Origin: Anoxynatronum buryatiense
GTDB lineage: Bacteria > Bacillota > Clostridia > Peptostreptococcales > Tindalliaceae
Assembly (NCBI RefSeq): GCF_900182905.1
Contig: NZ_FXUF01000014.1
Span: 1-64,000 of the forward strand
Length of the DNA: 64,000 nucleotides
Direction of reading: 5' to 3'
A program made the position numbers and the translations under genes. The notes under the pieces were generated by a model. The model searched no databases and was not told the DNA's origin. It saw only the letters and a list, made by a program, of their open reading frames with translations. Within the stretch, counting starts at the first letter, position 1. Each line of letters starts with the position of its first letter. Shown piece after piece: positions 10,427-24,794 of the stretch.

Positions 10427-10436
10427 CCGGAACGTC

Positions 10437-11069
10437 TCAAGGCTCCAGTAACAAAGCTCTCACGGGAGATGCTTCAGCCCCTTTTATTTTTAAAGGCACC
10501 GCCACCAACAGATAGTCCCCTTGCGCCACATCAGCCAATCGAAGTCCTTCAAGAATCAGTATGCCGTTTCCCAGAAGTGTTTTGTGCGTCATTCGGTCCG
10601 GCTGATCACGCTCGATGCCCAGGGAGTCAATTCCCACACCGGTCACTCCCATGTCTTTAAGGTAGACAGCGCCTGATCTTTCCAGGTAGACAAAATCAAG
10701 ATCGAAGATTTCCTGAAAAGAGTTGCGTGTTTTTAGCAAAATGAACTTTCCAGGCTGAATGTCTTTTTTTTCAAGATCCTGCTGCGTGATTCCGCCGGCT
10801 GCTTCTGTCAGATCCACCACCTGACAAGGTGTGATCACTTGTTCCAAACGAAGGTCATCCAGTGTTTCTCCGTCTGGCAGCATATGCAGCGGCATATCCA
10901 GATGGGTGCCGGTATGCATTCCCAGGGTTACTGTTGTTTCATAGGCTTCGCCTGTTGTAAAGTCCCGGGTGACTTGAATCCGGGGCTTGTTTTCTTCCCG
11001 GTTTTTATAGACCATCATATTTTCTGAGATTTCCATACTGATATCGATGATGGTGCCTGGCCATTTCAT
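10437..11069 (-). CDS. Cyclase-family hydrolase (kynurenine formamidase-like fold)
   Basis: Metal-dependent hydrolase of the cyclase family, 210 residues. The metal-binding signature is seen as HTGTHLDMPLHM near residue 59. Family members hydrolyse N-formylkynurenine or other amide and lactone substrates; the substrate here is unknown. The start at 11069 has AAAAGGAGG and overlaps the zwf stop as ATGA, so the gene is translationally coupled. A longer reading from 11093 lacks a ribosome site. Being third in the gnd-zwf operon, it sits where many bacteria have 6-phosphogluconolactonase (pgl). A lactonase role is a speculative but testable inference. Confidence 0.83.
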   Translation of the reverse strand: MKWPGTIIDISMEISENMMVYKNREENKPRIQVTRDFTTGEAYETTVTLGMHTGTHLDMPLHMLPDGETLDDLRLEQVITPCQVVDLTEAAGGITQQDLEKKDIQPGKFILLKTRNSFQEIFDLDFVYLERSGAVYLKDMGVTGVGIDSLGIERDQPDRMTHKTLLGNGILILEGLRLADVAQGDYLLVAVPLKIKGAEASPVRALLLEP

Positions 11070-12535
11070 TGATTTTCCTCCTTTTCCTCCCATGCTGATG
11101 CATGTTTCAACCGCTCCTCATAGACTGGCCCTTGCGATCCTTTCGGGTAGGATTTCACCGCTTCGGGGTGTGCTGCTGCCCAGGACGTCAGATGGTCAAT
11201 CCATATCCAGGAGGCTTCCACTTCATCCCAATGGGTAAAGGAGCTTTGATCTCCCTTCATGGCGTCCAGCAACAATTTTTCATATGCCTCGGGCGTATTG
11301 GTGCCGGCCAGACAGTTCTGGCAGAAATCCATGTTGACGGTCATCAGCTGATCCATTGTTCCCGGTTCTTTCGAGTTAAAGGTCAGGACAACACCTTCCT
11401 GAGGCTGGATCTGTATGATGAGCCGATTCGGCGCAAGCTGCTGCTGGGTTTGCCTGAGACTCCATGATCCCATGGGCAGCTTGTACTGGATCATGATGCC
11501 AGCTGTTTTTTCTGCCAGCGCTTTCCCTGTGATCAGGAAAAAGGGCACGCCCTCCCAACGGGGATGATCCAGAAAAACTTTCAGGGCTGCGAATGTTTCA
11601 GTGGTGGATTCCGGTGCCACTTTCGGTTCGTTGTGATACCCCTCATACTGCCCCAGCACCAGCCTGTTTTCCATGGTTTCAGGTGCAAGGGGTATCAGAC
11701 TTCTAAGAATCCTCACTTTTTCAGCCCGAAGCTTTTCAGCAGTCAGGAAATTCGGCATTTCCATGGCCGTCAGTGCCAGCATCTGCAACATGTGGTTCTG
11801 CAGCATATCCCGCAGTGCTCCAGCCTGGTCATAGTAAGCGCCCCGGGTACCCACCCCTTCCATTTCTGCTGAAACAATCTGCACATGATCAATGTGGTCT
11901 TTATTCCAGGTTGGTTCAAAAATCTGGTTGGCCGCACGGATGGTCATCAGATTCTGAACCATTTCCTTGACCAGATAATGATCAATCCGGAAAAGCTCTT
12001 CTTCCTCAAAAACCTTCCTCAGTGTCTGGTTTAGTTCTCTGGCAGAGGCGGCATCACGGCCAAAGGGTTTTTCGATCATCATCCGCTGCCAGCCGTGTTT
12101 TCGATCAATAAGGCTTTGGTTTTCCAGATGCTGTACAATGGTTCCAAAATATTCAGGCGAGACCGCCATGTAGAAAAGTCGGTTTCCCTCGCTTTCCAGC
12201 TTTTTCTCAAGGGTATCCAGTTTCTTTTTCAGCGACCCATACTGATCTTCCTGATCAAACTCAAGGGGCTGGTAGTGGAATCTGTTTGCCAGCTTGCTCC
12301 AAATTGCATCTTCAAAAATCTCATGGGTGTGCTCTTCGGATTTCTGCCTGATATGCGTCAGATACTGGTCAGTGGAATACGCTTTTCTGGCAACCGCCAC
12401 CACTCCGAAAGCTTCAGGGAGCAGTTCTTTTACTTCCAGATGGTAAAGGGCTGGCACCAGTTTGCGACTGGTCAGGTCTCCCGTGGCACCAAAAATAACC
12501 ATCAGACAGTTCATCTCTCCCCCATCCCACGCCAT
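11066..12535 (-). CDS. zwf: Glucose-6-phosphate 1-dehydrogenase
   Basis: Oxidises glucose 6-phosphate to 6-phosphogluconolactone, the entry to the oxidative pentose phosphate pathway. The 489 residues are full length. The nucleotide-binding motif is VIFGATGDLTSRKL, and the catalytic segment RIDHYLVKEMVQN lies near residue 180. The start overlaps the gnd stop as TAATG and uses an AAAGGAGG site inside the end of gnd. An ATG seven codons in is possible but has poorer spacing. Being second of three coupled genes, it should be made together with Gnd and the cyclase-family protein. Confidence 0.96.
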   Translation of the reverse strand: MAWDGGEMNCLMVIFGATGDLTSRKLVPALYHLEVKELLPEAFGVVAVARKAYSTDQYLTHIRQKSEEHTHEIFEDAIWSKLANRFHYQPLEFDQEDQYGSLKKKLDTLEKKLESEGNRLFYMAVSPEYFGTIVQHLENQSLIDRKHGWQRMMIEKPFGRDAASARELNQTLRKVFEEEELFRIDHYLVKEMVQNLMTIRAANQIFEPTWNKDHIDHVQIVSAEMEGVGTRGAYYDQAGALRDMLQNHMLQMLALTAMEMPNFLTAEKLRAEKVRILRSLIPLAPETMENRLVLGQYEGYHNEPKVAPESTTETFAALKVFLDHPRWEGVPFFLITGKALAEKTAGIMIQYKLPMGSWSLRQTQQQLAPNRLIIQIQPQEGVVLTFNSKEPGTMDQLMTVNMDFCQNCLAGTNTPEAYEKLLLDAMKGDQSSFTHWDEVEASWIWIDHLTSWAAAHPEAVKSYPKGSQGPVYEERLKHASAWEEKEENQ

Positions 12536-13440
12536 TAGGCTTCCTCCTTTTTCACCGTTGCATGGCCGCCAAACTGGTTCCTCAGGCCGGCCACCACTTT
12601 TCCTGAAAAAGTATCTGCCTGTTGAGACCGATACCGTGTGAAAAGAGATGCGGCAATGACAGGCACCGGCACAGACAGGTCAAGGGCTTCCTGCACGCTC
12701 CAGAGGCCTTCACCGGATGCGTGAACAACCCCTTTGATTGAGGCCAGATCAGGGTCTTCCTGAAAGGCTTTTTGTGTCAGATCCATCAACCAGCCCCGAA
12801 TCACCGAACCGTGGCGCCACACCTCTGCCACCTGGGCATAATCCACCTCAAAAGGGCTTTCCTTTAAAATTTCAAAGCCTTCTCCGATGGCCTGCATCAT
12901 CCCATATTCAATCCCGTTGTGGATCATTTTTACATAATGTCCGGCACCTTCCGGCCCTACATGGGCCAACCCGCCAGGCACACAGAGATCTCTCAGCACC
13001 TCTTCCACCTGGCTGAAATCTTCATCGCTGCCCCCCACCATCATGCAGGCGCCATGCCGGGCACCTTCAATACCGCCGCTGGTGCCAATATCCATGAAAT
13101 GAATGCCTTTTTCCTTCAGCTCACCGGCACGCCGCAGGGTATCCCGGTAATGGGAGTTACCGCCATCAATCACCAGATCGCCTGCTGCCAGCAAGGGCGT
13201 CAGGTCTGTCAACACAGCATCCACCGGCGCTCCCGCTGACACCATGATCCAGATTCTCCGGGGTTGGTCCAGTTGCTTCACCAGATTCTCCAAAGAGTTG
13301 GTTCCTGCAATGCCTGCTGCCTGAAGGGCTTTCACTTTTTGAAGGCTCCGGTTATAGCCGATCACGCTCTGACCCCGCTCATGCATGTTCAGGGCCAGTT
13401 GGAACCCCATTTTACCCAGTCCGATTAATCCGATTTTCAT
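12535..13440 (-). CDS. gnd: 6-phosphogluconate dehydrogenase (short, GndA/YqeC type)
   Basis: Oxidatively decarboxylates 6-phosphogluconate to ribulose 5-phosphate. The N-terminal Rossmann motif GLIGLGKMGFQLA starts at residue 3, and the substrate segment DGGNSHYRDTLRR is near residue 97. The protein has 301 residues, the short family that lacks the C-terminal extension of the 470-residue enzymes and is often NAD-linked. ATG at 13440 has GAAGGAGG ahead of it; a start at 13479 lacks a site. First gene of the gnd-zwf-cyclase operon. A TGACAGT-rich region upstream may be an operator. Confidence 0.93.
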   Translation of the reverse strand: MKIGLIGLGKMGFQLALNMHERGQSVIGYNRSLQKVKALQAAGIAGTNSLENLVKQLDQPRRIWIMVSAGAPVDAVLTDLTPLLAAGDLVIDGGNSHYRDTLRRAGELKEKGIHFMDIGTSGGIEGARHGACMMVGGSDEDFSQVEEVLRDLCVPGGLAHVGPEGAGHYVKMIHNGIEYGMMQAIGEGFEILKESPFEVDYAQVAEVWRHGSVIRGWLMDLTQKAFQEDPDLASIKGVVHASGEGLWSVQEALDLSVPVPVIAASLFTRYRSQQADTFSGKVVAGLRNQFGGHATVKKEEA

Positions 13441-13490
13441 GTGAATTTCCTCCTTCTCCAATATCCAATAAAGCTTCATTCATTTTCAAC

Positions 13491-13519
13491 TGACAGTACG
13501 GTGACGACTGTTGACAGTC
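13491..13519 (-). promoter_or_regulatory. Repeated TGACAGT elements upstream of gnd
   Basis: TGACAGT occurs at 13491-13497 and 13512-13518, spaced 21 bp (two helical turns). The second copy is part of a small palindrome GACTG-TTGA-CAGTC (13506-13519). The position, about 50-80 bp before the gnd start, fits an operator for an unknown regulator. Confidence 0.4.
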
Positions 13520-13557
13520 AGTCGTATGACAAAAACAGTGATGCGGCGCAAACAGGC

Positions 13558-14982
13558 TTATGGTAAAAACAACCATTGAAACAGTTTCTTCTGCCAGGGC
13601 TTAAAGGAATCTTTTAACTGGGTCAGTGCCGCTCCTCCAAAGATTTCCGATTTGGTGGGGTAGGCATAAATGATGTTCATGAAATCCGACACCTTCAGCT
13701 TCTTCACAATGGCCAGGGAAGCCAGGGAAATCATTTCCCCTGCCTGTTCGCAGACCAAGGTGGCGCCGATGACCCTTTTTTTGCGGTCCAGCACCAGCTT
13801 CAAGAGCCCTTCCCGGTCGTTTTCGATGATGGCCCGGTCCACCTCCCGAAAAGGATGGGTGATGACAGACCCCAGCAACCCGGCTTCTTTGGCGGTTTTT
13901 TCCGCATAACCAGCATGAGCCACCTGGGGGCTGGTGTAGGTGGTCCAGACCACATGGCGGTAATCCACTTTTTTCTTCAGGGACAGAAACAGGTTTCGCA
14001 CCACAATCCCCGCCTGGTACCCGGCCATGTGGGTGAACTGATGGGGGCCTGCAATATCGCCGCAGGCGTAAATATGCGATTGACTGGTTTGCAGGGTTTC
14101 GTTCACCACCACAAATCCCCGCCGGTCAGTTTTCACACCGGCAACCTCCAGACCCATACCTGCCGAAGCCGGCCGGCGGCCCAGGGCGATGAGGAAGGCG
14201 TCTCCTTCAAGAACCGAGGATGTATCTTTTGGGGTTTCTTTCAGTGCAAGGCTGATCCGGCTCCCTTCCCGGGAAACACCGGTGATGTCGCAGCCATAGA
14301 GGAACCGGATGCCGTCGGCTTCCAGTTTCCGGGCCATGATTTCTCCCACCTCCGGTTCATCCTTCTTGAACAGCTCATGACCCCGAAGAATGACTGTGAC
14401 CCGGGAACCCAGCTGAACAAAGGCCTGGCCGATCTCCATGGCGATGGGGCCGGCTCCCCAGATCATCAGGTGCTCCGGCAGTTTTTCCAGGGAGAACAGT
14501 GTTTCATTGGTGAGATAGCCCACCTTATCCAGTCCTTCCAGTTTTGGAACCTGAGGACCGGAACCGGCTGTAATCACAATTCTTTTTCCTGTGAGAACCC
14601 GGTCCCCCGCCTGGACCGTATACGCATCCAGCAACCTACCATGAGACTGGATCACCTCCACTCCCATGGACTGGAAGCGTTCCACTGAATCGTGGGGGGC
14701 AATTTCTTCGATGACCCGATGGACCCGGTTCATAACTTTTTCAAGGTTCACAGGCGCCAGGGAACCGTCCAGTCCCATTTTTTCGGACTGCCTGATCCAG
14801 TTTGCCAGATGGGCACTGGCCAGCAGGGCTTTGCTGGGAACGCACCCAGTGTTGAGGCAGTCTCCCCCCATTTCATTCCCTTCAATCAGGGCCACCTTTG
14901 CACCCAGGGCAGCGGCCCCTCCCGCAGTCACCAGCCCGGCACTGCCGCCGCCAATGACGATGACATGGTATTGATCATCCAT
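13558..14982 (-). CDS. FAD-dependent pyridine nucleotide-disulfide oxidoreductase (MerA/Lpd-like)
   Basis: Flavoprotein of 474 residues related to mercuric reductase and dihydrolipoamide dehydrogenase. The FAD motif GGGSAGLVTAGGAA is at the N-terminus, the redox-active disulfide is in GGDCLNTGCVPSK (about residues 39-51), and the second FAD motif is in YACGDIAG. There is no N-terminal heavy-metal domain and no C-terminal Cys pair, so mercury reduction is unlikely. It lacks the His-Glu signature of true dihydrolipoamide dehydrogenases as far as seen. AAGGAG precedes the ATG. Last gene of the ydj/ynj-like operon, where it probably supplies or takes electrons for an unknown substrate. Confidence 0.85.
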   Translation of the reverse strand: MDDQYHVIVIGGGSAGLVTAGGAAALGAKVALIEGNEMGGDCLNTGCVPSKALLASAHLANWIRQSEKMGLDGSLAPVNLEKVMNRVHRVIEEIAPHDSVERFQSMGVEVIQSHGRLLDAYTVQAGDRVLTGKRIVITAGSGPQVPKLEGLDKVGYLTNETLFSLEKLPEHLMIWGAGPIAMEIGQAFVQLGSRVTVILRGHELFKKDEPEVGEIMARKLEADGIRFLYGCDITGVSREGSRISLALKETPKDTSSVLEGDAFLIALGRRPASAGMGLEVAGVKTDRRGFVVVNETLQTSQSHIYACGDIAGPHQFTHMAGYQAGIVVRNLFLSLKKKVDYRHVVWTTYTSPQVAHAGYAEKTAKEAGLLGSVITHPFREVDRAIIENDREGLLKLVLDRKKRVIGATLVCEQAGEMISLASLAIVKKLKVSDFMNIIYAYPTKSEIFGGAALTQLKDSFKPWQKKLFQWLFLP

Positions 14983-15026
14983 TCAGACATCTCCTTCCTG
15001 CCCCTTTTTTCCTGGCATTGATGCCG

Positions 15027-16031
15027 TCAGGAATACATCAGGTGAATCTGTTCCGGCAACCTTATTTCCACCGTCTGGCCGATACTCAGGTCACATTGGA
15101 AATCGCCTTCAATCCAGAGGGAGATGTCACCCACCAGCACCTTCACCCGTCGGCTTTTCCCCAGGTAGCGTATGTCTATGATTCTGGCATCTCCATCTCC
15201 TGATGTCACGCAGATCCCACGTTCCGGAATCAGGCCGGTGGCCGGTCCTTCAGGTATGCCTACTGATAAAAAGCACCCCAGTTCACAGTGAAACTCTCCC
15301 TTAACAACAGATCCTTCCACCAGGTTCCCGGCTTCCATAAAACGGGCAGTTGCCATCTTTTTCGGTCGTTCATAGAGCTCTTGGGGGGTGCCCGACTCCA
15401 GCACTTTTCCCTCTTTCAGCAACAGTATTTCATCGGATAGCTGCAGGGCTTCCGTCACATCATGGGTCACAAAAATAACCGTCAGATTCATCTGACGCTG
15501 CAACGTCTTCACCTGCTGACCCAATTCCCGTCGAAGGGAAGGGTCCAGACTGGAAAAGGGTTCATCCATCAACACCAGGGGATTTCCAGGTGCCAGGGCC
15601 CTGGCAATGGACACTCGCTGCTGCTGCCCCCCGGAAAGGGTTCCCGGGATCCGGAGCTCCAATTCGCTGATTTGAAGCACTGCCAATAATGCCTGCACTT
15701 GATTCCTGATTTTCCCCTTGTTCCACCCCGCTGTCTCCAGCCCAAAGGCGATGTTCTGGTATACCGTTAAATGGGGAAAAAGCAGGGGCTGCTGAAAAAT
15801 CATGGGGATTCTGCGCCCCTCTGCCGGAACTGCCGTCACATCCCGGCCCTCCAGAAGAATGTGGCCCTCCTCCGGCTTTTCCAGGCCGGCAATCAGTTTC
15901 AGCAGGGTGGTTTTACCCGTTCCGGAATCTCCCAGTATGGTATGGAAGCAGCCCTTCGGCGTCCGGAAGCTGACAGATTGGATGATAGACTGTCTGTCCA
16001 GCTTTTTTGACACATTCACCAGCTCAAGCAT
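15027..16031 (-). CDS. ABC transporter ATP-binding protein (YnjD-like, with TOBE domain)
   Basis: ATPase subunit of an importer, 334 residues. It has a Walker A motif GDSGTGKTT (about residue 34), signature LSGGQQQRVSIARA and Walker B LVLMDEPFSSLD. The C-terminal 110 residues form a TOBE-like regulatory domain, making it longer than E. coli YnjD (about 217 residues). AAAGGAG precedes the ATG. It follows the fused permease by 46 bases and completes the binding protein, permease and ATPase set. Closest named analogues are the spermidine/thiamine/iron-type importers; the cargo is not predictable. Confidence 0.9.
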   Translation of the reverse strand: MLELVNVSKKLDRQSIIQSVSFRTPKGCFHTILGDSGTGKTTLLKLIAGLEKPEEGHILLEGRDVTAVPAEGRRIPMIFQQPLLFPHLTVYQNIAFGLETAGWNKGKIRNQVQALLAVLQISELELRIPGTLSGGQQQRVSIARALAPGNPLVLMDEPFSSLDPSLRRELGQQVKTLQRQMNLTVIFVTHDVTEALQLSDEILLLKEGKVLESGTPQELYERPKKMATARFMEAGNLVEGSVVKGEFHCELGCFLSVGIPEGPATGLIPERGICVTSGDGDARIIDIRYLGKSRRVKVLVGDISLWIEGDFQCDLSIGQTVEIRLPEQIHLMYS

Positions 16032-16077
16032 GGGCAGTCTCCTTTACAACAATGGTCTCATGCATGACAGGATTGCA

Positions 16078-17775
16078 TTAGAACAGATAATCTGTTTGTG
16101 ACGAACTTCGGCGAACCCAGCCATCGGCCAGGTAAAACAGGCTCAGGTGAATGGCCAGGAACAGGGTGCCCATGACAGCACCGGTCCCCCACTGGCTGCT
16201 GGTCAGAGCTGGGTACATGATCATGGAAAAAGTGAGCACATTACCACCACCCAGCAGTAACACGGAAAAAAGCTCCGAAAAAGACAGTAAAAACCCGATA
16301 CAAAAGGAAAAAAAGAGGCCGGGCATCATCAGGGGCAGCAACACTTTCCGATGATACTGAATGGTGCTGCAACCCAGTGTTTTGGCAGTTTCTTCCAATT
16401 CGCTGCCAATTCCTTTGCAGTAGGCTGTCAGGATTGCCGTGGCATAAGGCAGGCTGATGATCACATGAACTGTCAGGACAGCGGCTCCGGTGTTGGCCAG
16501 GGAAAGCCGTAACATCACCAGGTGAAGGCTGAGCATCAGCACCACCGCCGGCACGTACAGGGGCAGGGAAATCAGCGCAAACCATGACAGGGAGGAGGAT
16601 GGCTCCATCCGGGACAGGCTTCGTGCCGTCACCATTCCCAGCAGTGTGGTGATGAGCCCGGTGAGGAAGGCCAGCCGGACACTGGTGTACAGCCCTGGCA
16701 GGAACAGGGCATTGCGCCCCAGGGTGTTTTCCCAAAATTGCAGAGAAAAACCTCTGGGAATCAGCTCCGGAAAGGGAATGGCTGCAACAAAAGAAAAGAG
16801 GATGACGTAGCCCATGGGCATAAGCCACAGGACCGAGATCAGTACCAGGCCCACGGAACCTGCACTGATGAACCCTGTCGGTGTGTCCTTTCCCTTGTCT
16901 GAAGCGGGAAACCACCGAAAATACGTGGTGCTTTTCAACAGCCGGTTGAGCAGGCTCAGGTACAAGGCAGCGGTGGCGGCACCAAGCACCAGCATCATCA
17001 TTCCCTGGGCCATGGCTTGGTAATAACTGGAAAGGCCGGGGCGCAGGTACAGGGTGTAGAGGCTGGCTGACAATGGACGGGGAGAAAAGGCACTCATCAG
17101 ATGGGGAACCTCAAAGGATCCCAGGGCGTAAGCAAAATGAACCAGACAACTCCACAGAATGACCCTGCGGCACAAGGGCAGGTAAATGGCAATCAGCTGC
17201 TGCAGCCGTCCGGCACCCAGGGTGCGGGCAACGCTCCGGTAATGGCCGTTGATGCGGGTCATCACTGTCAGGCTCATGAGGGCAACGAAGGGAATTCCTT
17301 TAAAGGCGTAGACCCAGATCATGCCCACCCCGGCAGTATCAAAGATCAGCGGGGGAAAGGACTCGGGACTGTCAATGGCCCCCAGGGCCAGGGCCAGTCT
17401 CGACAGCAAGCCGGCCTGACCCAGCAACAAAAACGCCAGAAAAACCACGTACAGGTAGGGAAGCACCAGACCTGCCTGCATCACCCGTTCCGACAGGCGG
17501 CGCAACACCGCTTTTTCACTGGTGGCAATGCCATAGGCTGTCAGGGTACCTACCACCGCAGCCAACAGGGAAGCGACAACCGCCAAATAGAGGCTGTAAA
17601 AGGCGTTCGTCCAAAACTCGGATTGATTCAGCAGGGTCCGGTAGTGGATTAGTGTCAGGGCAGCCCCTGAATCGCCGGGATCAGTGAGGCTCGTTATGAA
17701 CATGAGCACCAGTCCTCCTGCCACCATCAGGATCAGGGCCATGACAGGGAGCAGTCTTCGGATGTTTCGGTTCAT
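16078..17775 (-). CDS. ABC transporter permease, two fused domains (YnjC-like)
   Basis: Inner-membrane importer subunit of 565 residues with about twelve hydrophobic segments. It contains two binding-protein-dependent permease domains in one chain; EETAKTLGCSTIQYHRKVLLPLM near residue 465 is the EAA loop of the second. Fusion of both permease halves is the hallmark of YnjC (E. coli form about 511 residues). The start overlaps the stop of the binding-protein gene as TGATG, giving tight coupling. It acts with the lipoprotein upstream and the ATPase downstream. Confidence 0.9.
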   Translation of the reverse strand: MNRNIRRLLPVMALILMVAGGLVLMFITSLTDPGDSGAALTLIHYRTLLNQSEFWTNAFYSLYLAVVASLLAAVVGTLTAYGIATSEKAVLRRLSERVMQAGLVLPYLYVVFLAFLLLGQAGLLSRLALALGAIDSPESFPPLIFDTAGVGMIWVYAFKGIPFVALMSLTVMTRINGHYRSVARTLGAGRLQQLIAIYLPLCRRVILWSCLVHFAYALGSFEVPHLMSAFSPRPLSASLYTLYLRPGLSSYYQAMAQGMMMLVLGAATAALYLSLLNRLLKSTTYFRWFPASDKGKDTPTGFISAGSVGLVLISVLWLMPMGYVILFSFVAAIPFPELIPRGFSLQFWENTLGRNALFLPGLYTSVRLAFLTGLITTLLGMVTARSLSRMEPSSSLSWFALISLPLYVPAVVLMLSLHLVMLRLSLANTGAAVLTVHVIISLPYATAILTAYCKGIGSELEETAKTLGCSTIQYHRKVLLPLMMPGLFFSFCIGFLLSFSELFSVLLLGGGNVLTFSMIMYPALTSSQWGTGAVMGTLFLAIHLSLFYLADGWVRRSSSQTDYLF

Positions 17776-19040
17776 CAGCGTCCCCCCACTTCCTCCTGCC
17801 AGATTTCCTTGATCCAGTCAATGGTGTGGGCATGCATTTCAGGCACCCGGTAAGCCGCCAGCATTTCCAGGGAAGGCATCCCCGGCTGGGATTCAATGGC
17901 GGCCAGTTCCTGCTGCAGTTCAACTGTCAGACGGGAAGGATCAATGGCGGGCATATCCCCCCACACCTCCGGTTTGTACTTGTGCAGCTGGGCTTCAGGG
18001 CTTTGGAGAAAATCGATGACCAGCAGGGCGCCGGCCTTTTCAGGGGCATTGAAAGGCACCGCCAGGTAATGGGAGTTGCCAATGCTGCCACTGTCAAAAA
18101 TCAGGGTTTCCACGGTTTCCGGAAAGACCCCTTCCCGGATGAGGCCCAGCACCTTTCCCACTTCAAAGCCCATGGAAAAGGCGGTTTCCCCGTTGCGGAA
18201 AAAATCATCCAGCTGTGCCTGGGAGGCGGGGTAGGCTTTCCCTTGGTGCCATAGGTGGGGTTGCAGCTCCCGGAAATAGGCCATGACCGGCTGTGAAATC
18301 TCATGGATTTCTTCCCGGCTCATTTCCCGGGTGAGTTCCCCTTCTGTCAGGCTGGCGAGCTCATAATAGGCAGACCGGATAAAGGCAGCCCCGGCAAAAT
18401 CATCCACCGGGTTGGGGTAGGTAAACCTTCCCGGATTCTCCCGCGCCCAGGTCAGAAGCTCTCCATAACTCCGGGGCGGCTCCGGAATGCGGGCGGCGTC
18501 GTAGGCCATGATCAGTTGGGCACGGCCCCAGAGGGCTTCAAACCCATCAATGGGCACTCCGGTGTCAAAATGAAGGTCCGGGGATTCCGGGTTCATGTAG
18601 GCCTGCTGGTTAGGCAGCAGGTGGGTAAAAGGCCCCCAGAGGAGGTCGGCTTCCCGGGCAGTCCGAAAGTTTTCTCCGTTGATCCAGACCAGGTCTGCGG
18701 TTCCTCTGCTGAGACCGCTGCGTTTCTCGTTGATGAACTTTGCCATGAACTCCGGTGCGTTCATGGGCACCCGGCGGAGGGTGATTTGGTGTTGTTCCAG
18801 AAGCGCCGGTGCCACCCATTCGTCCATGTACCGGTTCACCTGGTCATTACCGCCCCACATGACCATGGTGACGGTGGTGCCTTCTCCGGATGCCGCCACT
18901 TCTTCCCAGGTGTCCGGCTGAAACATTTCCGGCGAAGCCTCCTGAGCCGGCGAAGCGCAGCCGGCCAGGAAAAGCACAAACAGGATCATCCATCCAACAG
19001 GACAGTTTCTTTTTCGATCATTTTGACGAGATCGTTTCAC
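17775..19040 (-). CDS. ABC transporter solute-binding lipoprotein (YnjB-like)
   Basis: Extracellular substrate-binding lipoprotein, 421 residues from the GTG at 19040. The signal segment GWMILFVLFLAGC carries a lipobox LAGC, so Cys at about residue 28 should be lipidated. The family-1-type binding fold is shown by VTMVMWGGNDQVNRYMDEWV near residue 58. The GTG start has GAAGGG about 10 bases upstream and lies 4 bases past the previous stop. An ATG at 19067 would overlap that gene and has no good site. It resembles YnjB of E. coli in size and context. The ligand is unknown. Confidence 0.85.
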   Translation of the reverse strand: MKRSRQNDRKRNCPVGWMILFVLFLAGCASPAQEASPEMFQPDTWEEVAASGEGTTVTMVMWGGNDQVNRYMDEWVAPALLEQHQITLRRVPMNAPEFMAKFINEKRSGLSRGTADLVWINGENFRTAREADLLWGPFTHLLPNQQAYMNPESPDLHFDTGVPIDGFEALWGRAQLIMAYDAARIPEPPRSYGELLTWARENPGRFTYPNPVDDFAGAAFIRSAYYELASLTEGELTREMSREEIHEISQPVMAYFRELQPHLWHQGKAYPASQAQLDDFFRNGETAFSMGFEVGKVLGLIREGVFPETVETLIFDSGSIGNSHYLAVPFNAPEKAGALLVIDFLQSPEAQLHKYKPEVWGDMPAIDPSRLTVELQQELAAIESQPGMPSLEMLAAYRVPEMHAHTIDWIKEIWQEEVGGR

Positions 19041-19044
19041 GAAA

Positions 19045-19665
19045 TCACTTCCCTTCAGTCTTTTCATCAGACTTCGATGAAATCTGCTCCTGTCGGATCA
19101 GGCGGTAAAACCGCAGGATGCCGGTGACAAACATCAGGGCGTTGAAAACCATTAAGAGGCCGAACTGGCCGGCGGGCCAAAGAATCATTCCGGTGAAAAG
19201 CAGGAAGGTCTCCGTTCGCTCCAGAATCCCGGGGTCATAATGCATGCTTTTGCCTCCCCTGTTGGGAAACAGAGCCCCCGCGGCCAGAAAGGTGGAAAAA
19301 TTAAAAATGACGCCCACAAAAAACAGCAGGTGGGCCAGGGCATGCTCCGGTGCAACGGCGTAAAAACCCAGGATCACCGCCGCTTCCACCATCCTGTCCA
19401 GAATCAGGTCCATGAGAGCCCCCGTAGCGGAAACCCTGCCGCTGAGACGTGCCACAGTGCCGTCCAGTACATCCATGATGCCGGAAAGCCACAATAGCAC
19501 CAATGCCATCATCATCCACTGCCGGCTGATGAAGAAGCCGGCAGCCAGGCCGGTGACGCATGCGGCCAAGGTGATCTGAACCGGGGTGAATCCTGCCCGG
19601 CAGAGGTTTTTTCCCGTTTGGTCGAACAGCGGTTGTACCCGGTGATGCAGTCTGGTATCAATCAT
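19045..19665 (-). CDS. CDP-alcohol phosphatidyltransferase (YnjF-like)
   Basis: Membrane enzyme that transfers a phosphatidyl or related group from a CDP-alcohol to an acceptor. The 206 residues equal the length of E. coli YnjF. The family signature D-G-x2-A-R-x8-G-x3-D-x3-D is complete (DGTVARLSG...GALMDLILD, about residues 63-86). Several hydrophobic helices follow. It overlaps the preceding membrane protein gene by 8 bases. Its place between a TVP38 protein and an ABC importer is the conserved ynj arrangement, but the acceptor alcohol is unknown; it need not make a housekeeping phospholipid. Confidence 0.88.
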   Translation of the reverse strand: MIDTRLHHRVQPLFDQTGKNLCRAGFTPVQITLAACVTGLAAGFFISRQWMMMALVLLWLSGIMDVLDGTVARLSGRVSATGALMDLILDRMVEAAVILGFYAVAPEHALAHLLFFVGVIFNFSTFLAAGALFPNRGGKSMHYDPGILERTETFLLFTGMILWPAGQFGLLMVFNALMFVTGILRFYRLIRQEQISSKSDEKTEGK

Positions 19666-20347
19666 CGGCGAGTCCTTTCTGTCTTTTACGAATCTGCCCT
19701 GGTATCAGTGACACGAAAACAAAGAACACCGCTCCAATCCCCAGGTATAACAGAACCCGGCGCGGATCCCCTTCTCCGGCCACCACAGACCCGGCCATGA
19801 AATTGTAGGCGGTAATGCCGGGAATCATGCACACCCAGGACACCAGTACATAAGTACCCAGGGAAATGCGGGTTAATCCGTAGGCGAAGTTCTGCAGGTT
19901 AAAGGGGAACAGCGGCACCATCCGTGTCACCATGAGCATCCGCCATCCCTGCTTTTCCACCCCCCTGTCAATCCGCCGGAAAGTTTCGTTTTCACCCAGC
20001 CAGTTTTCCACCATGTTCCGGGCGGCGTAGCGGGCGGTGAGAAAGGCAGCGGCGGCACCCAGGGTAGACCCGATGGAGGTGAAGACAGCCCCCCAGACAG
20101 GCCCGAAAGCGAGCGCTCCCATGAGGGTCACAGGAAAGCCCGGCAGCATCAGCAGGCAGGCGGCTATGTAAATCAGAATGTAGATCATCGGCCCGGCCGC
20201 ACCGAAACCAGACACCCAGTCTCGCAAAAGGGTGGCGTTTTCCAGCCGGATGAACCGGCTGATCCCCAGCAGGCGAACTGCCAGTATGAGCGTGATCAGA
20301 ATCCCGGCAATGGCCAGCAGCCTTCTTCGGTCCGGTTGTTTTTTCAT
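19658..20347 (-). CDS. TVP38/TMEM64-family membrane protein (YdjX/YdjZ-like)
   Basis: Integral membrane protein of 229 residues with about six hydrophobic stretches. The family core is seen in LMLPGFPVTLMGALAFGPVW (about 67-86) and the SNARE-associated motif GSTLGAAAAFLTARY after it, then RMVPLFPFNLQNFAYGL. Relatives belong to the DedA/VTT group, some of which move lipids between leaflets; the function here is not known. GGGAGG lies 8 bases before the ATG. It begins the structural part of the ydj/ynj-like operon, 59 bases after the TetR gene. Confidence 0.88.
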   Translation of the reverse strand: MKKQPDRRRLLAIAGILITLILAVRLLGISRFIRLENATLLRDWVSGFGAAGPMIYILIYIAACLLMLPGFPVTLMGALAFGPVWGAVFTSIGSTLGAAAAFLTARYAARNMVENWLGENETFRRIDRGVEKQGWRMLMVTRMVPLFPFNLQNFAYGLTRISLGTYVLVSWVCMIPGITAYNFMAGSVVAGEGDPRRVLLYLGIGAVFFVFVSLIPGQIRKRQKGLADD

Positions 20348-20406
20348 GGATGTTCCTCCCGTTCACGTGGTGCTGTCATGGCTGCTCCCAGCAGCTGCCA
20401 GTGCAC

Positions 20407-21009
20407 TTACTTTTTTGAAGCAGAATCCGGACAATCCAGCAAGTGTGTCATCATCTCAACAAACACATCCAGCGGGCGTCTGTTGCGGCTTGATTTCATC
20501 CGCACCATGGCTCCCTGAAAGCTGTTGACCAGGAACTCAGCCATTTGATGGCTGTGAGTGACCAACGTGGGTTCCTCTGACAGACACTGGGCGATCTCTT
20601 CGACGACGGCGCTCAGAATTTCATCCGCCGTTGCTGCAATGCGGTCGTTCAGATCTCCCATTTCCTCTGAAAAGTTACCCACCAGGCATCCCATTTGGTA
20701 GTGAAAACCTTCCATCTTTTGAATGTTGCCTATGAAAAAGGCTTTCACCCGCTCTTTGGGAGGCATGGATGTGTTCTTCAGTACCACCAGCAGGTGATCT
20801 TTCAGCTGTTGGTGGTAAAAACGCAGGGCCTGAATCGCGTATTCCTCTTTACTTTCAAAGTAGTTATAAAAGGAGCCCTTGGGAATCCCCGCCGCATCTG
20901 CCAGCTCTTGGATGCCGGTACCGTGATAGCCCTGCCGGTAGATCGTGTGGATGGTTTTTTCAATGATTTCGTTGCGTTTAAGCTGTTTTTTATCCATTTT
21001 GATGCACAT
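20407..21009 (-). CDS. TetR-family transcriptional regulator
   Basis: DNA-binding repressor of 200 residues. The N-terminal TetR helix-turn-helix reads GIQELADAAGIPKGSFYNYF (residues 35-54), and the C-terminal ligand domain is of the AcrR/YxaF-LmrA kind. The ATG has GGGAGG 9 bases upstream. It is the first gene of the ydj/ynj-like operon and is preceded by the PrdB-like selenoprotein gene on the same strand. The 15-bp inverted repeat at 22083-22122 contains ACTGGT/ACCAGT flanked by TAGA/TCTA, similar to YxaF/LmrA-type sites, so this regulator might act there. That link is inference. Confidence 0.88.
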   Translation of the reverse strand: MCIKMDKKQLKRNEIIEKTIHTIYRQGYHGTGIQELADAAGIPKGSFYNYFESKEEYAIQALRFYHQQLKDHLLVVLKNTSMPPKERVKAFFIGNIQKMEGFHYQMGCLVGNFSEEMGDLNDRIAATADEILSAVVEEIAQCLSEEPTLVTHSHQMAEFLVNSFQGAMVRMKSSRNRRPLDVFVEMMTHLLDCPDSASKK

Positions 21010-21152
21010 GAACTGCTGCCTCCCTGCGCTGTGTGCCAGTCATGCGGCGCCTTCCTCTCAACAATTTTCCGGTACATTAAAATAACCTGCTTCAGTTCAT
21101 CAATCGTGCAGTTGTTCTCAAGACAGGCAACATTATTTCACCCTTTTGTTTG

Positions 21153-21887
21153 TCAGATGATTGAGGATAACACCAGCAGACTCTCCGGCTCTCCGTCAAG
21201 CGCAACCTCGATGGCTCTTTTGAGAATCTTTGTCTGTGTTTCCCCATCACCGGCATGACCAAAAATCGTCCCCAGCGAATAATCCACCTGAATCATCCGG
21301 GGCGGCCGCACAATTTTTCCGATATTGGGCAGGTTCATAAGGGAAACGGTGCGGATTCCATTCTCTTCCATTTCCCGCTGGATCAGTCCCACGGACTGAT
21401 GGCAGGTGTATCAGCCAGGAGTCAGGACGACGATGTCCACCCCGTCCTCCAGCAGGATTCGGGCAGCTTCCGGAGCTGTTTCGTTCACCAGAGGCCCCAC
21501 ATCAGGGATATAACCCATGAAACTAATGTGACTGGATGCTGATGAAGCCACAAAACCCTCTTTCACCAGCTCTTCCAGCCGGTCCATGGGGAGAAGGCAG
21601 TTCACATCTGCCCGCACATCGGTTTCATCATAATGACCGTGAGTAACGGTGATTTCAGTTTGGGATGTGTTTCGGGGAATCAGCCGGAAGCTGTGGTCTC
21701 CATTCTTTGGTGTGAAGGGTGCCTGGTTTTTCAAATGAATCCCGCCGGTGGTGATCAGTGCCACCCGGCATTCTTCCCTTGGTTTGGTTACGGTAGCAAT
21801 GACCGGCTTTGTCATTGGCCTGCCAATCTGGATTTCAAACAACTTTGCGCGAATCCGTTCTTTGTAGGTAAGCCCGTCTCTTGGCAT
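21153..21887 (-). CDS. PrdB-like selenoprotein (Sec at TGA 21411-21413)
   Basis: Selenocysteine protein of the glycine/sarcosine/betaine reductase B and D-proline reductase PrdB family. Reading through the in-frame TGA (residue 159) gives 244 residues, about the size of PrdB. The segment around it reads VLTPG-U-YTCHQS, matching the PrdB active site with Sec and a Cys three residues on. Upstream blocks ALITTGGIHLK, THGHYDETD and HISFMGYIPDVG are also family-like. A hairpin with an 8-bp stem follows the TGA at SECIS distance. ATG at 21887 has AAGGGGGTGG upstream. No prdA, prdC or proline racemase gene is near, so a stand-alone reductase or redox role is more likely than proline reduction. Confidence 0.9.
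21382..21400 (-). promoter_or_regulatory. SECIS-like hairpin of the PrdB-like gene
   Basis: ATCAGTCC-GTG-GGACTGAT: a perfect 8-bp stem with a three-base loop starting 19 nt after the TGA. Spacing and the G-U in the loop match the bacterial SECIS and the two other Sec genes here. Confidence 0.8.
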
Positions 21888-22349
21888 TTCACCACCCCCT
21901 TCAATACTTCCACTGACTTCCCGAGCACTCTCTTGAAAGATTCCAACGCCATTTGATTGACTCAACCTTATCTGCCGCCAGTTATCGCCGCTGAATCTCA
22001 AATTTCATCGATCCATTTCCACTTAATCATCCCTGACACACTTTTTTTATTTGAATGAATCATCGCAAGATCATTTCTGGTCTCACATCAAATTAGACGA
22101 CTGGTCATCTAATTTGATGTGAAAAAAATAGGCATCATGCATTCATTTCATCTACATCATACCCCCCGTATATTGTCTTTAATCGCTGCAGCAAAGACTT
22201 TTCAGATGCTCAACAATTTATATTGTCATTGAAAAGTGGACTCATTGGATACCCTGATACCGTTCATGAAAGAATCTACAACTTAAGATGATACCAGGGC
22301 TCCGAAAGATCATCCGTCGCCCTGGCCACAGGTGAATCATCATCCCAAG
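21888..22349. other. Non-coding gap upstream of the PrdB-like gene
   Basis: 462 bp without a supported gene. It holds the long inverted repeat at 22083-22122 and a GC-rich hairpin CCAGGGC/GCCCTGG (22294-22325) just past the permease stop on the minus strand, which may act as a weak terminator although no T tract follows. No convincing promoter was recognised for the selenoprotein gene. Confidence 0.6.
22083..22122. repeat. Perfect 15-bp inverted repeat, 40 bp long
   Basis: TCACATCAAATTAGA / TCTAATTTGATGTGA around a 10-base centre CGACTGGTCA. No T tract follows on either strand, so it is not a normal terminator. The centre with flanking TAGA/TCTA resembles TetR-type operators. It lies about 195 bp before the PrdB-like start. 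Confidence 0.85.
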
Positions 22350-23273
22350 CTACATCAAACGGTAAAGGTAACCGGACACCACCGCACCCACCAGGCTGTA
22401 GGCCAGGTACAGGAAAAACACTTTGCGTTTCACAATGGAGTAAACGGCTGCCATGGCCGGTATGGAGGTGGCCGCACCGCCGATCATAAAGGCCAGGGCA
22501 GTTCCCTTGTCCATTCCCAAATCCATGAGCCCTCTGATTACCGGCATGGCTGAAATGCTGCTGGCATAGGCAGGAATCCCCACCAGTGCTGCCAATAGAG
22601 GACCGGCGTCGTTGCCACTGCCCAGTAACCCTGCCACCCACACCACTGGTACGTACTGCACTATCAGCGCTTCCAGTACGAAGGCCAGCAAAATGTATTT
22701 CCCAATGAAGATCCCCATGTCAAAGGTGTTGATTATAAAAGACTTCATCATTTTTCCGTCCCATCTTCTATCAGGCTCCGATTCCTGTTGACAGGATGAT
22801 GTGCCACAGCCTTGCGTTCCCATGGAGTACCGCAATACCTCCGGTTCAATTCTTCCTGTTTTCATCAAATACCAGGTACCGTAGCCGGCAACAAGCCCAA
22901 TACCCAAAGTGGCCGTCAATCGGGCCACGGCCATCCCACTGCCCAACAGGCTGTAGGTGAGCACAAAAGACTCAGGACTCATGAGCGGAGAAGTAATCCA
23001 GAAAGCCATGATAGGAGCCAGGGGAATTCCCGCCGCCAACATGGCCGCAATGGCTGGAATGACACCACAGGAACAAAGCGGACTGAAAGCACCGGTGCCT
23101 GCAGCCACAGGAATGGAAACCAGTTCCCTTCCCTTAAAGGCCTTTTTGAAAGATTGTTCAAGCTTCAGGGTTTTAATCAGTGATGCCACCGAGATGCTTA
23201 ATAAAAAGAATGGAAAAATACTTTTGACTGCATTGACAGTAAACATCAGCACAAATAAAATGGTTTCACTCAT
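22350..23273 (-). CDS. SaoE/ArsP-type efflux permease (DUF318 family)
   Basis: Membrane permease of 307 residues from ATG 23273 (AAAAGGAG 8 bases upstream; a GTG three codons earlier is possible). The family core FSPLCSCGVIPAI, with its conserved cysteines, lies near residue 63, and a second block PAYASSISAMPVI lies in the C-terminal half. A central cytoplasmic loop carries GCGTSSC, a further metal-type Cys pair. Relatives export trivalent organoarsenicals (ArsP) or are named SaoE or SO_0444 metal efflux proteins. It forms a unit with the Cys-rich MarR regulator upstream, and both have the same 13-bp palindrome in front. The substrate, probably a thiophilic metal or organometal, is inference. 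Confidence 0.85.
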   Translation of the reverse strand: MSETILFVLMFTVNAVKSIFPFFLLSISVASLIKTLKLEQSFKKAFKGRELVSIPVAAGTGAFSPLCSCGVIPAIAAMLAAGIPLAPIMAFWITSPLMSPESFVLTYSLLGSGMAVARLTATLGIGLVAGYGTWYLMKTGRIEPEVLRYSMGTQGCGTSSCQQESEPDRRWDGKMMKSFIINTFDMGIFIGKYILLAFVLEALIVQYVPVVWVAGLLGSGNDAGPLLAALVGIPAYASSISAMPVIRGLMDLGMDKGTALAFMIGGAATSIPAMAAVYSIVKRKVFFLYLAYSLVGAVVSGYLYRLM

Positions 23274-23431
23274 GGAAAACACTCCTTTTTAATGTTTTTC
23301 ATATTTAATGTTTTTTCATGGAATCACCAGAACATTCAACCTTCAGGTTAAGCCGATCTGTTGAAGGAATGATCACCTAAATGGTTGAATACATCTGATT
23401 CAGGTAACCGATATATTGCTTAATGCATTTA

Positions 23432-23444
23432 TTGTATTATGCAA
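23432..23444. promoter_or_regulatory. MarR operator copy 1 (upstream of permease)
   Basis: TTGTATTATGCAA, a near-perfect palindrome, lies in the gap between marR and the permease gene, about 160 bp from the permease start. It is identical to copy 2 except at the central base. Confidence 0.7.
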
Positions 23445-23483
23445 ATAAATAGCATGGCTATAGGTCTTTTTTGTTTTGATCGT

Positions 23484-23981
23484 TCAACAGCAGTTGGGAT
23501 TGGCTTCATCAAAAGCCTCCACCAATAGTGCCACTGCCTGTAACACCTCCCTCACCTGACCTTCCGGCAGATTGGCAACAATTTTACGATAGTAATCCTG
23601 AATCGACACCTCCACTGTTTCTGCTGCTTCCTGCCCTTTTTCTGTCAAACTTACCACCACCATACGCCGGTCCTTTTCTTCCCGCATTCGCTCAATGTAC
23701 CTGTCGCGCACCAGGTTATTCACAATACGTGTCATGGTACTGGTGCGGGCATTGAGTTTTTCGCTCAGCTCATTCATGGTCAGGCGGGGGGTGCGTTTCA
23801 GCTGCGTGAGCACATAGGCCTGCGAGGTGGTGAAACCATGGGGTTTAATCTGATCACGTTCGAAAAGCTGCATCACCCGTACCAAATGCTGTACCGTCTG
23901 GCCCACTTCTTCCACACAGCAGTCAGCTGAAGTTTCACAGGTGCATTGGGTAGGTACTCCTTGCCCGGCAACTGATTTCAT
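23484..23981 (-). CDS. MarR-family regulator with N-terminal Cys cluster and C-terminal Cys-Cys
   Basis: Winged-helix regulator of 165 residues. The MarR core spans about 35-140, with recognition region TMNELSEKLNARTSTMTRIV and wing EEKDRRMVVVSLT. Two unusual features stand out: an N-terminal cluster with five cysteines (QCTCETSADCC) and a protein end NPNCC, a free vicinal Cys pair at the carboxyl terminus. Both look like binding sites for a thiophilic metal or organometal. ATG at 23981 has AAAGGGGG upstream. It precedes the efflux permease on the same strand, and identical palindromes precede both genes, suggesting autoregulated, metal-released repression. Confidence 0.88.
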   Translation of the reverse strand: MKSVAGQGVPTQCTCETSADCCVEEVGQTVQHLVRVMQLFERDQIKPHGFTTSQAYVLTQLKRTPRLTMNELSEKLNARTSTMTRIVNNLVRDRYIERMREEKDRRMVVVSLTEKGQEAAETVEVSIQDYYRKIVANLPEGQVREVLQAVALLVEAFDEANPNCC

Positions 23982-24001
23982 GGTAAAACCCCCTTTATTT
24001 A

Positions 24002-24014
24002 TTTGTATCATGCA
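24002..24014. promoter_or_regulatory. MarR operator copy 2 (upstream of marR)
   Basis: TTGTATCATGCAA, 21 bp before the marR start codon, matching copy 1 at 12 of 13 positions. The position fits autorepression. Confidence 0.7.
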
Positions 24015-24133
24015 ACCATTTATGTGTCAATCATTTTTTCATCCGTCCAATCAACAACACCGTTCTTTGTTTAAACCAGGCAACACCATGGATGGATACC
24101 TGGATCTGGTGAAGCCGCTTTGGAAATCCTGCC

Positions 24134-24670
24134 TTAGTCCAGTTTAAGTCCCATCGACATCAGGTCATAATACTGCCCCTTTACCTTGAACTCCCGGGTA
24201 ATGATGCCTTCCACCTGAAATCCTGTCTGATGATAAAGTCGAATGGCCCCCACATTATCGGTGCGTACCCGAAGGTTGATTTTTCGGATGGTTCCCGTCC
24301 CTTTTGCCCAAACGATCAGCCTTTCCAATAAAGCACTGCCCAGCCCCTGTCCCCAAAATTCCCGCAGCACGCTCATGCCAAACTCGCCTGCATGGGCAGT
24401 TCTGGGACGGTTTCCTCCGGTGAAATGGAGATTGCCGATGATGCGGTTCTCAACTACTGCCACCAGAAACAGCGCGTTTGGCTGGCTGTTGACTGACCGG
24501 ATAAAATGAGCCTCTTCTTTTTTCGTTATGTTCAGTTCCCCCGGCCCAAAGGTCAGGTTATCGGATTCCCTGCTGATCTGATTCATGTAGGCGATCAGCG
24601 CTGCTGCATCCGCCTCCACAGCTTTCATGATATTCACCTTCTGACCGCTTTTCAGGATGGCAGTGACCAT
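24134..24670 (-). CDS. GNAT-family N-acetyltransferase
   Basis: Acetyl-CoA-dependent acyltransferase of 178 residues. The acetyl-CoA loop is GQGLGSALLERLI (about residues 105-117), preceded by the GEFGMSVLREFWGQ strand and followed by NVGAIRLYHQTGFQVEG, the usual C-terminal GNAT motif. ATG at 24670 has AAAGGAG; longer readings to 24814 lack a site. The architecture resembles ribosomal-protein or small-molecule acetylases of the RimI/YhhY kind. The acceptor is unknown. It lies alone between the MarR and ZIP genes. Confidence 0.88.
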   Translation of the reverse strand: MVTAILKSGQKVNIMKAVEADAAALIAYMNQISRESDNLTFGPGELNITKKEEAHFIRSVNSQPNALFLVAVVENRIIGNLHFTGGNRPRTAHAGEFGMSVLREFWGQGLGSALLERLIVWAKGTGTIRKINLRVRTDNVGAIRLYHQTGFQVEGIITREFKVKGQYYDLMSMGLKLD

Positions 24671-24794
24671 GGTATCGCTCCTTTGCCTTTGTCTCTTTAT
24701 CTGCACTTTCTTCTTTTGCCATCGACTGAGGCTGTCCCTGAACGGAGACAGCCTGATGTGATCATACAATCGATTGGTGGTGATTTTGATGCGT

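Follow-up and report, generated by a model that had tools for sequence, protein, structure and literature searches.

A YnjBCD-type importer linked to a CDP-alcohol phosphatidyltransferase, a TVP38 protein and a predicted orphan PrdB-like selenoprotein gene in Anoxynatronum buryatiense

A ynj-type gene block in A. buryatiense

The first 64,000 nucleotides of contig NZ_FXUF01000014.1 of Anoxynatronum buryatiense (RefSeq assembly GCF_900182905.1), referred to here as the window, carry seven genes arranged head to tail on the minus strand at 13558-21009. They encode a YnjB-type substrate-binding protein (SBP) with its permease and ATPase, a CDP-alcohol phosphatidyltransferase, a TVP38-type membrane protein, a flavoprotein and a TetR regulator. 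An original prediction, made from the DNA alone, had described this block as a TetR-led operon of unknown purpose. All seven genes are present in the order and at the coordinates given there, and the block proved broader than that prediction stated. The tight overlaps that it cited are real, with 8 nt shared between the TVP38 and transferase genes, 23 nt between transferase and SBP, and 1 nt between SBP and permease. The genes are as follows, in the direction of transcription.

20407..21009, minus strand: TetR regulator with an AcuR/LmrA-YxaF-like C-terminal domain (PF00440, PF21993; AcuR model 123.9 bits, below the cut-off of 247)
19658..20347, minus strand: TVP38/VTT (DedA superfamily) membrane protein (PF09335, 5.8e-26; 35.1% to YdjX)
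19045..19665, minus strand: YnjF-like CDP-alcohol phosphatidyltransferase (PF01066, CDP-OH_P_transf)
17775..19067, minus strand: YnjB-type substrate-binding lipoprotein (SBP_bac_8; NF008633, PRK11622 subfamily, 423.9 bits, cut-off 203; lipobox-like LAGC)
16078..17775, minus strand: fused YnjC-type permease (PF00528, BPD_transp_1, two stretches in one protein)
15027..16031, minus strand: YnjD-type ABC ATPase with a C-terminal extension (PF00005, ABC_tran, at residues 18-159 of 334; 35.5% to YnjD)
13558..14982, minus strand: MerA/Lpd-like class I flavoprotein with a CxxxxC motif (PF07992 and PF02852, Pyr_redox_2 and Pyr_redox_dim)

With YnjB above the NF008633 cut-off and homologues of YnjC/YnjD, YnjF and TVP38 adjacent, the block belongs to the ynj-type modules; E. 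coli YnjB itself scores 559.9 bits on this model. BLAST against E. coli K-12 matched YnjB (33.6%, 5e-58), YnjF (35.9%, 8.5e-22), YdjX (35.1%, 8e-43), YdjZ (27.6%), YnjD (35.5%) and YnjC (28.7% over 108 aa). The proposed likeness to the E. coli ydjXYZ-ynjABCD/ynjE/ynjF neighbourhood thus stands for five genes, the matches of ydjX/ydjZ, ynjF, ynjB, ynjC and ynjD, but not for the flavoprotein and TetR genes, which have no counterpart there. None of the seven window proteins matched YdjY, YnjA or YnjE, and there is no MerA-like gene in the E. coli neighbourhood; the window adds this flavoprotein, TetR and a PrdB-like selenoprotein gene described below. The ynjF homologue lies inside the operon and is co-directional in the window, whereas E. 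coli ynjF is on the strand opposite ynjABCD.

In the available excerpts of the open-licence literature, neither a function nor a substrate was found for the ydj/ynj genes, nor a known substrate of any close homologue; the genes appear there only in tables of expression, binding, prediction and pangenome data. According to those excerpts, FNR activates ydjXYZ-ynjABCD and, separately, ynjE (PMC3688515), BaeR overexpression weakly raises ynjA and ynjB (PMC2731931), and a PdhR screen has a peak at ydjX (PMC7660256). COG4134 is among the predictions of a Tat study (PMC3305326) and YnjBCD is enriched in one Marinobacter clade in a pangenome study (PMC9207381). A further close likeness to the window is seen on Metabacillus dongyingensis pBY2G20 (L046), where TVP38, an FAD oxidoreductase, YnjB, permeases, ATPase and a CDP-alcohol transferase form one run; the permeases are split and the gene order differs from that of the window, and further upstream are genes for a TetR regulator and an AhpD-type carboxymuconolactone decarboxylase.

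Importer, transferase and TVP38 genes are linked across phyla

Gene neighbourhoods, defined as the region within 8 kb of YnjB, were compared in three samples; short contigs make the linkage counts lower bounds. Among 41 relatives, 17 genomes (the window's included) were over the YnjB cut-off, and 17 of the 18 loci in the other 16 were counted; the excluded locus, L039, is a second locus of genome G007 that barely passes the cut-off (208 bits) and was left out of the tree as well. A named set comprised the best 80 of at least 572 confirmed relatives by similarity to the query and is not a random draw. In 299 genomes drawn evenly from the phylum (the even draw), YnjB was over the cut-off in 26 and matched at any score in 42; 24 of the 25 over-cut-off genomes other than the window's were analysed, G123 being left out with its truncated contig. 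Three loci (L139, L143, L144) duplicate others (L064, L048, L055) and were removed from the tables of 118 loci and of 80 loci with full flanks (more than 6 kb on both sides; 82 before removal), but kept in the per-set and 82-locus counts.

In the even draw, a CDP-alcohol transferase gene was found near YnjB in 16 of 24 loci, TVP38 in 17, a redox flavoprotein in 16 and all three together in 11. The corresponding counts were 7/17, 9/17 and, with the flavoprotein, 4/17 for the relatives, and 47/80, 47/80 and 35/80 for the named set. Only three VTT and three CDP-alcohol transferase genes exist in the window's 4.16 Mb genome, which puts the chance of finding either kind in a random 17-kb stretch at about 1%, an estimate from this one genome. 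Transferase and TVP38 genes occur together in 56 of the 118 loci, in up to 35 gene orders (a figure that counts incidental ATPases), and of the 67 transferase genes near YnjB, 55 share its strand.

The combination of transporter, transferase and TVP38 recurs in Bacillota, Fusobacteriota and Pseudomonadota, with one locus each from Spirochaetes, Chloroflexi and Rubrobacter, and its gene order varies widely; this bears out the predicted conservation across phyla. Independent occurrence of the parts, named in the original prediction as grounds for abandoning it, was not seen in the neighbourhood survey, though the parts are not obligatory: 11 of the 80 full-flank loci have neither of the downstream sets described in the next section. 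The smallest versions are alphaproteobacterial operons of only transferase, SBP, permease and ATPase (L168 and L171; Qingshengfaniella and Aliiroseovarius). TVP38 is fused to a flavoprotein in L045 and, by annotation, in L169, and a TVP38-rhodanese fusion occurs in L043. COG0398-flavoprotein fusions of this kind are already on record in the accessible part of one study (PMC10127716). A Deinococcus locus has the transporter and no annotated transferase or TVP38; a lysophospholipid acyltransferase gene is directly upstream of its SBP gene. One further protein cluster occurs near YnjB in L048, L057 and L085; the L085 member, the only one scanned, is an LPG_synthase_TM protein. Like the Deinococcus acyltransferase, it fits a lipid-related role of the module.

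The fusion locus L045 is on a Salmonella IncC plasmid (NZ_MH760469.1), where the TVP38-flavoprotein fusion is accompanied by another FAD protein, YnjB and a short open reading frame resembling a permease, adjoining IS26. Resistance genes of an integron and DUF692/DoxX genes are nearby.

Two mutually exclusive downstream gene sets

Where the transferase is lacking, YnjB is often near genes for an APH-type kinase, a nucleoside hydrolase, TIGR04282 (CofC-like) and TIGR04283 (GT2) proteins, in varying combinations. Across the 118 loci, 67 have the transferase, 26 the kinase or nucleoside hydrolase, and none has both. For the 80 full-flank loci, the numbers with both, the transferase only, the kinase or hydrolase only and neither were 0, 49, 20 and 11, respectively (Fisher 2.4e-11). 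This test is inflated by relatedness, so we placed the labels on an SBP tree of 126 rows (leaving out L026, L029, L040 and SBP fragments shorter than 330 aa), on which the transferase versus kinase/hydrolase label changes about 10 times. When TIGR04283 and TIGR04282 were also counted, there were 3 overlaps in 82 loci, all through TIGR04283.

The two types of locus have several other genes in common. TVP38 is present in 42/49 transferase-type and 8/20 kinase/hydrolase-type loci, an FeS flavoprotein (FADCDR) in 17/49 and 8/20 and rhodanese in 15/49 and 7/20, respectively. The MerA-like gene (labelled FLA) is commoner in the former (29/49 versus 1/20), while YedE-type transporters are commoner in the latter (7/20 versus 3/49). 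This pattern suggests that the two sets are two routes from one imported compound.

In five loci (L031, L042, L109, L113, L145) the chief gene recognised beside a YnjBCD-type importer encodes a nucleoside hydrolase, which hints at a ribosyl substrate in that branch.

The transferases keep the catalytic motif but lack the inositol-phosphate arginine

All 75 operon transferases aligned, the window's included, carry the catalytic motif D-x2-DG-x2-AR-x(7-9)-G-x3-D-x3-D, which places the window enzyme in the CDP-alcohol phosphatidyltransferase superfamily. This alignment, and that of 93 TVP proteins used below, include plasmid loci and duplicates, with a few duplicate genomes among the 75. The nearest solved relatives of the family profile are phosphatidylinositol-phosphate synthases (PIPS), with 6h53 at 7.7e-19. 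These enzymes (6h53, 6wm5) share with the operon transferases the family, the catalytic motif and three arginines: D93, R94, R152 and R195 of MtPIPS correspond to D90, R91 (Arg in 68/75), R150 (68/75) and R185 (74/75) of the window protein. R91 is replaced by F in 7/75 and R150 by G in 7/75, and four aligned proteobacterial members show both changes.

The position of MtPIPS R155 differs. It is T153 in the window protein, and the column holds G in 52, T in 19, A in 4 and Arg in none of the 75; the operon transferases have a distinct conserved pair, K139 (69/75) and Y143 (68/75). In the accessible text of two structural studies, R155 binds the phosphate of inositol phosphate and the R155A variant of MtPIPS is severely impaired (PMC4634129, PMC6506517). 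Inositol phosphate is therefore an unlikely acceptor, and we ruled out an inositol-phosphate synthase on the missing R155 equivalent. Judged by the aligned residues, the acceptor is likely to be polar, possibly anionic.

Substrate-binding protein, TVP38 protein and flavoprotein

An AlphaFold2 model of the SBP (pLDDT 91.5) was compared with known structures. Foldseek placed AfuA/PotD types and polyamine or iron binders at the top for this model, and VIA-align gave a best Z of 28.3 (root-mean-square deviation 3.0 over 337 residues) with many ties. The 50 matches listed, which include binders of sugars, glycerophosphodiesters and dinucleotides, fall at Z 26-28, and a comparison by ligand class gave no clear winner; relatives of the SBP bind polyamines, sugars and glycerophosphocholine. 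In an alignment of 52 rows, the conserved charges are mostly acidic (E114, D125, E132, D168, E177, D223, E294 and E410); E132, D168, E177 and D223 are acidic in 90% or more of the rows, a level reached by only three basic columns (K115, R231 and K363). From these acids and the basic acceptor pocket predicted for the transferase we would guess, with low confidence, at a zwitterionic substrate.

COG0398 (TVP38-type) proteins have been proposed as phospholipid scramblases by Todor et al., whose accessible text gives as traits of undecaprenyl-phosphate flippases (COG0586 DedA) conserved acids in re-entrant helix 1 and a pair of conserved arginines in re-entrant helix 2 (PMC10127716). In the alignment of 93 TVP proteins alone, read column by column, no acidic column exceeds 61%, and R142 and R106 are basic in 96% and 89%; this would tend to count against such a flippase.

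The flavoprotein falls below the curated cut-off for all 25 matches listed of the 56 models matched, including NF004991 (461 bits), MerA (TIGR02053; 367.3 bits against 454), Lpd and glutathione reductase. Mercuric reductase MerA (5x1y) is the closest solved sequence (5e-84), and both have CxxxxC and a Tyr at the Lpd His position; when aligned with 5x1y and Lpd 6uzi, the Lpd 'HAHPT' reads 'YAYPT' in the window protein, as in MerA. The His of the H-P-T motif near the C terminus is catalytic in disulfide reductases of the Lpd and glutathione type, and the window protein lacks it. Mercuric reductase requires a C-terminal Cys pair. The window protein differs from MerA in having no such pair and no heavy-metal domain among its Pfam matches, and MerA proper was ruled out by score. 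Among the 47 proteins labelled FLA, 38 have CxxxxC, three are gapped at that place and six look like other flavoproteins.

A predicted PrdB-like selenoprotein gene at the probable start of the operon

Between TetR and an ArsP-like permease gene lies an open reading frame that standard calling breaks at a TGA codon. Three features were identified in this region:

22083..22122, no strand: 40-bp near-perfect palindrome, core TTAGAtGACcaGTCgTCTAA, with 36/40 positions self-complementary; candidate TetR operator upstream of the PrdB-like gene
21153..21887, minus strand: PrdB-like selenoprotein gene (start 21887, selenocysteine (Sec) codon TGA at 21411-21413, stop TGA at 21153-21155)
21374..21413, minus strand: TGA with a candidate bacterial selenocysteine insertion sequence (SECIS) hairpin, 8-bp stem and GUG loop (minimum free energy -17.9 kcal/mol, z -3.22)

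Read with TGA as U, the gene encodes 244 residues (21156-21887) with the motif LTPG-U-YTCHQSVGLIQR. Four other YnjB loci carry a homologue, namely L027, L057 (Bacillus sp. MM2020_1), L058 (Ammoniphilus resinae) and L085 (Bacillus sp. B15-48), and TGA is at the identical residue in 5/5 genes. A hairpin with an 8-bp stem and a 3-nt loop, starting 13 nt past the first TGA base, appears in the folds of all five; its z-score against shuffled sequences was -3.22 for the window and -2.08, -0.89, -1.53 and -1.31 for the others. Stem changes are paired (CAGTCC/GGACTG versus CAATCC/GGATTG), at bases that are also under coding constraint. An Rfam scan of 10000-25000 gave no match, the candidate hairpin included. 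The window's genome encodes SelD, in a gene with an internal TGA of its own, and two further TGA-containing relatives, taken to be GrdB-type. The conserved in-frame TGA, the downstream hairpin and the presence of SelD together give the signature of a bacterial selenoprotein, which the PrdB-like protein is predicted to be.

The closest model is PrdB of D-proline reductase, which shares the in-frame TGA, but the protein scores only 199.9 bits on TIGR04483, below the 300-bit cut-off. No PrdA over its cut-off exists in the window's genome (best 51.5 of 700 bits), so the PrdB-like protein is an orphan rather than a proline reductase; D-proline reductase PrdAB was rejected on both scores. We also rejected the gene as a core part of the module, in which it is an accessory of five loci. 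Within the 299-genome draw, only the window's genome had a PrdB-like match beside YnjB, in a comparison of positions by eye from which split contigs could hide neighbours. Phrases describing PrdB-like proteins had no match in the open-licence literature.

The operon probably starts upstream of TetR, with the PrdB-like gene, and is probably not TetR-led as had been proposed: this gene lies 143 nt upstream of TetR, and the operator-like palindrome is upstream of it in turn. The scan for minus-strand terminators listed no site between the two genes, its total being at shuffle level, and promoter and terminator counts together were within the spread of the shuffle expectation. We infer that the TetR protein binds the palindrome. 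With up to two mismatches allowed, its 20-mer core is found nowhere else in the genome; the reversed control pattern was matched three times on each strand, which puts the core at no more than chance rarity, and the unusual feature is the length of the palindrome.

Three of the loci with the TGA-containing gene and hairpin (L057, L058, L085) are Bacillus-group records, which would mean selenocysteine use in Bacilli. On Cetobacterium somerae plasmid p2 (L170) the module comes after a methyltransferase gene and one for a (seleno)protein of the C-GCAxxG-C-C family, another hint of selenium.

Proposed function and alternative explanations

The reading we prefer, to which we give an even chance, is an import-and-lipidate module, in which a polar alcohol is imported and joined to the phosphatidyl group of CDP-diacylglycerol, with a thiol redox branch. 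YnjB would capture a small polar alcohol outside the cell for import by YnjC/YnjD, and the YnjF-type enzyme would join the alcohol, or its phosphate, to the phosphatidyl group to give a non-standard phospholipid, which TVP38 might then equilibrate across the membrane. The thiol redox branch, comprising the MerA-like flavoprotein here, an FeS flavoprotein and rhodanese elsewhere and the PrdB-like selenoprotein in the window variant, may reduce or trim the substrate before use, and TetR may sense substrate or product. In other bacteria the transferase would be replaced by a kinase and/or nucleoside hydrolase, in many cases accompanied by nucleotidyltransferase-like and glycosyltransferase proteins, as a different route for the same compound. 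Gene content, linkage, the exclusion between the two sets, the catalytic motif and the Sec signature are observations; the direction of the pathway, its step order, the lipid product, scrambling by TVP38 and the regulation belong to the proposal. The single pathway of import, lipid-like transfer and redox step in the original prediction is thus the best inference from linkage, with the amendment that the flavoprotein gene is interchangeable with several other redox genes.

Several observations weigh against this proposal. TVP38 is near YnjB in only 8/20 kinase/hydrolase-type loci, 12 of 67 transferase genes run opposite to YnjB, as E. coli ynjF does to ynjABCD, and the importer stands without either downstream set in 11/80 full-flank loci. 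The redox gene type varies by lineage (FLA 29/49, FADCDR 17/49 in transferase-type loci), so that any common chemistry is putative, and a few other flavoproteins are counted under FLA. The counting profiles were built from the same loci as were counted. The scramblase role of COG0398 is itself a proposal, as far as the accessible text goes (PMC10127716), and COG0398 membership of the window protein is putative. A zwitterion is fitted weakly by the basic-looking acceptor pocket and the SBP acids, whose position in the cleft is putative.

Possible instead, though on the doubtful side, is salvage of thiol or sulfane sulfur (or selenium), whereby an organic sulfur or selenium compound is imported and the flavoprotein, rhodanese, a YedE/TsuA-type transporter and the selenoprotein extract or reduce the S/Se, leaving the transferase only to dispose of the carbon skeleton or maintain the membrane. 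Rhodanese in 14/24 and a YedE-type pair in 7/24 even-draw loci fit such a role, as do a rhodanese-VTT fusion in Ilyobacter, the adjoining ynjE sulfurtransferase of E. coli and the TGA-containing PrdB-like gene in five loci; yet rhodanese and YedE fall to 9/80 and 2/80 in the named set, and the minimal Qingshengfaniella and Aliiroseovarius operons retain the transferase with no annotated sulfur gene within 7 kb. An envelope or redox stress operon, in which the membrane is remodelled and protected by TVP38, the transferase and the flavoprotein, a protectant enters through the importer and TetR senses an electrophile, is unlikely in our view. It would account for the reported BaeR effect (PMC2731931), the MsrAB and AhpD-like (CMD) neighbours of a few loci and the IncC-plasmid copy near DUF692/DoxX genes. 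The FNR activation (PMC3688515) has been counted in its favour too, but FNR signals anaerobic activation rather than oxidative stress, and Msr and CMD genes are found in just 5/82 and 1/82 full-flank loci.

Neighbours carrying the family name 'arsenosugar biosynthesis glycosyltransferase' (TIGR04282/TIGR04283) raise the idea of arsenosugar or arsenosugar-phospholipid metabolism, which we consider extremely improbable. TIGR04283 is over its cut-off in L024 and TIGR04282 in L032, with nucleoside hydrolase and kinase near, and TIGR04283 passes in 4/26 YnjB genomes against 17/299 overall, three of the four copies being beside YnjB. ArsS (TIGR04167), however, occurs in 6/299 genomes and in 0/26 with YnjB, the window's included, which refutes an arsenosugar lipid as a general account; four of these six also belong to the 17 TIGR04283 genomes, so one set of copies goes with ArsS and a separate one with YnjB. 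There is likewise very little room for the genes being unlinked neighbours brought together by chance or hitch-hiking: the 11/80 full-flank loci with only the transporter or other neighbours are what this would predict, and recurrence across phyla in shuffled order, the overlaps, the fusions and the chance linkage of about 1% each speak against it.

A bolder form of the import-and-lipidate proposal, rather unlikely in our estimation, is an unrecognised phospholipid class with an imported zwitterionic-alcohol headgroup, prepared by Sec-dependent reductive cleavage in which the MerA-like flavoprotein feeds the orphan PrdB-like selenoenzyme. If true, this would be a selenium-dependent lipid pathway of which E. 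coli ydjXYZ-ynjABCDEF is the selenium-free form.

New here are the probable earlier operon start with its orphan selenoprotein, the exclusion between transferase and kinase/hydrolase sets, and a catalytic motif kept without the inositol-phosphate arginine. The alternation of transferase with kinase or nucleoside hydrolase suggests that both act on one imported compound. The module points to an imported lipid headgroup, offers TVP38-type proteins a pathway in which they can be tested and gives an orphan selenoenzyme a genetic context. The minimal versions with transferase and transporter make it tractable; the gene set is present even in E. coli K-12, where the identity of the substrate is directly testable.

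Other genes around the block

Downstream, 78 nt after the flavoprotein gene and on the same strand, are gnd (NAD-type 6-phosphogluconate dehydrogenase) and zwf (11066-13479, minus strand), for which no match was reported among the 25 YnjB loci compared. Directly upstream of the operon is an ArsP_1-family permease gene (22350-23282, minus strand), its product weakly like the SaoE and SO_0444 efflux models, below cut-off, and beyond it a MarR regulator gene (23484-24011, minus strand).

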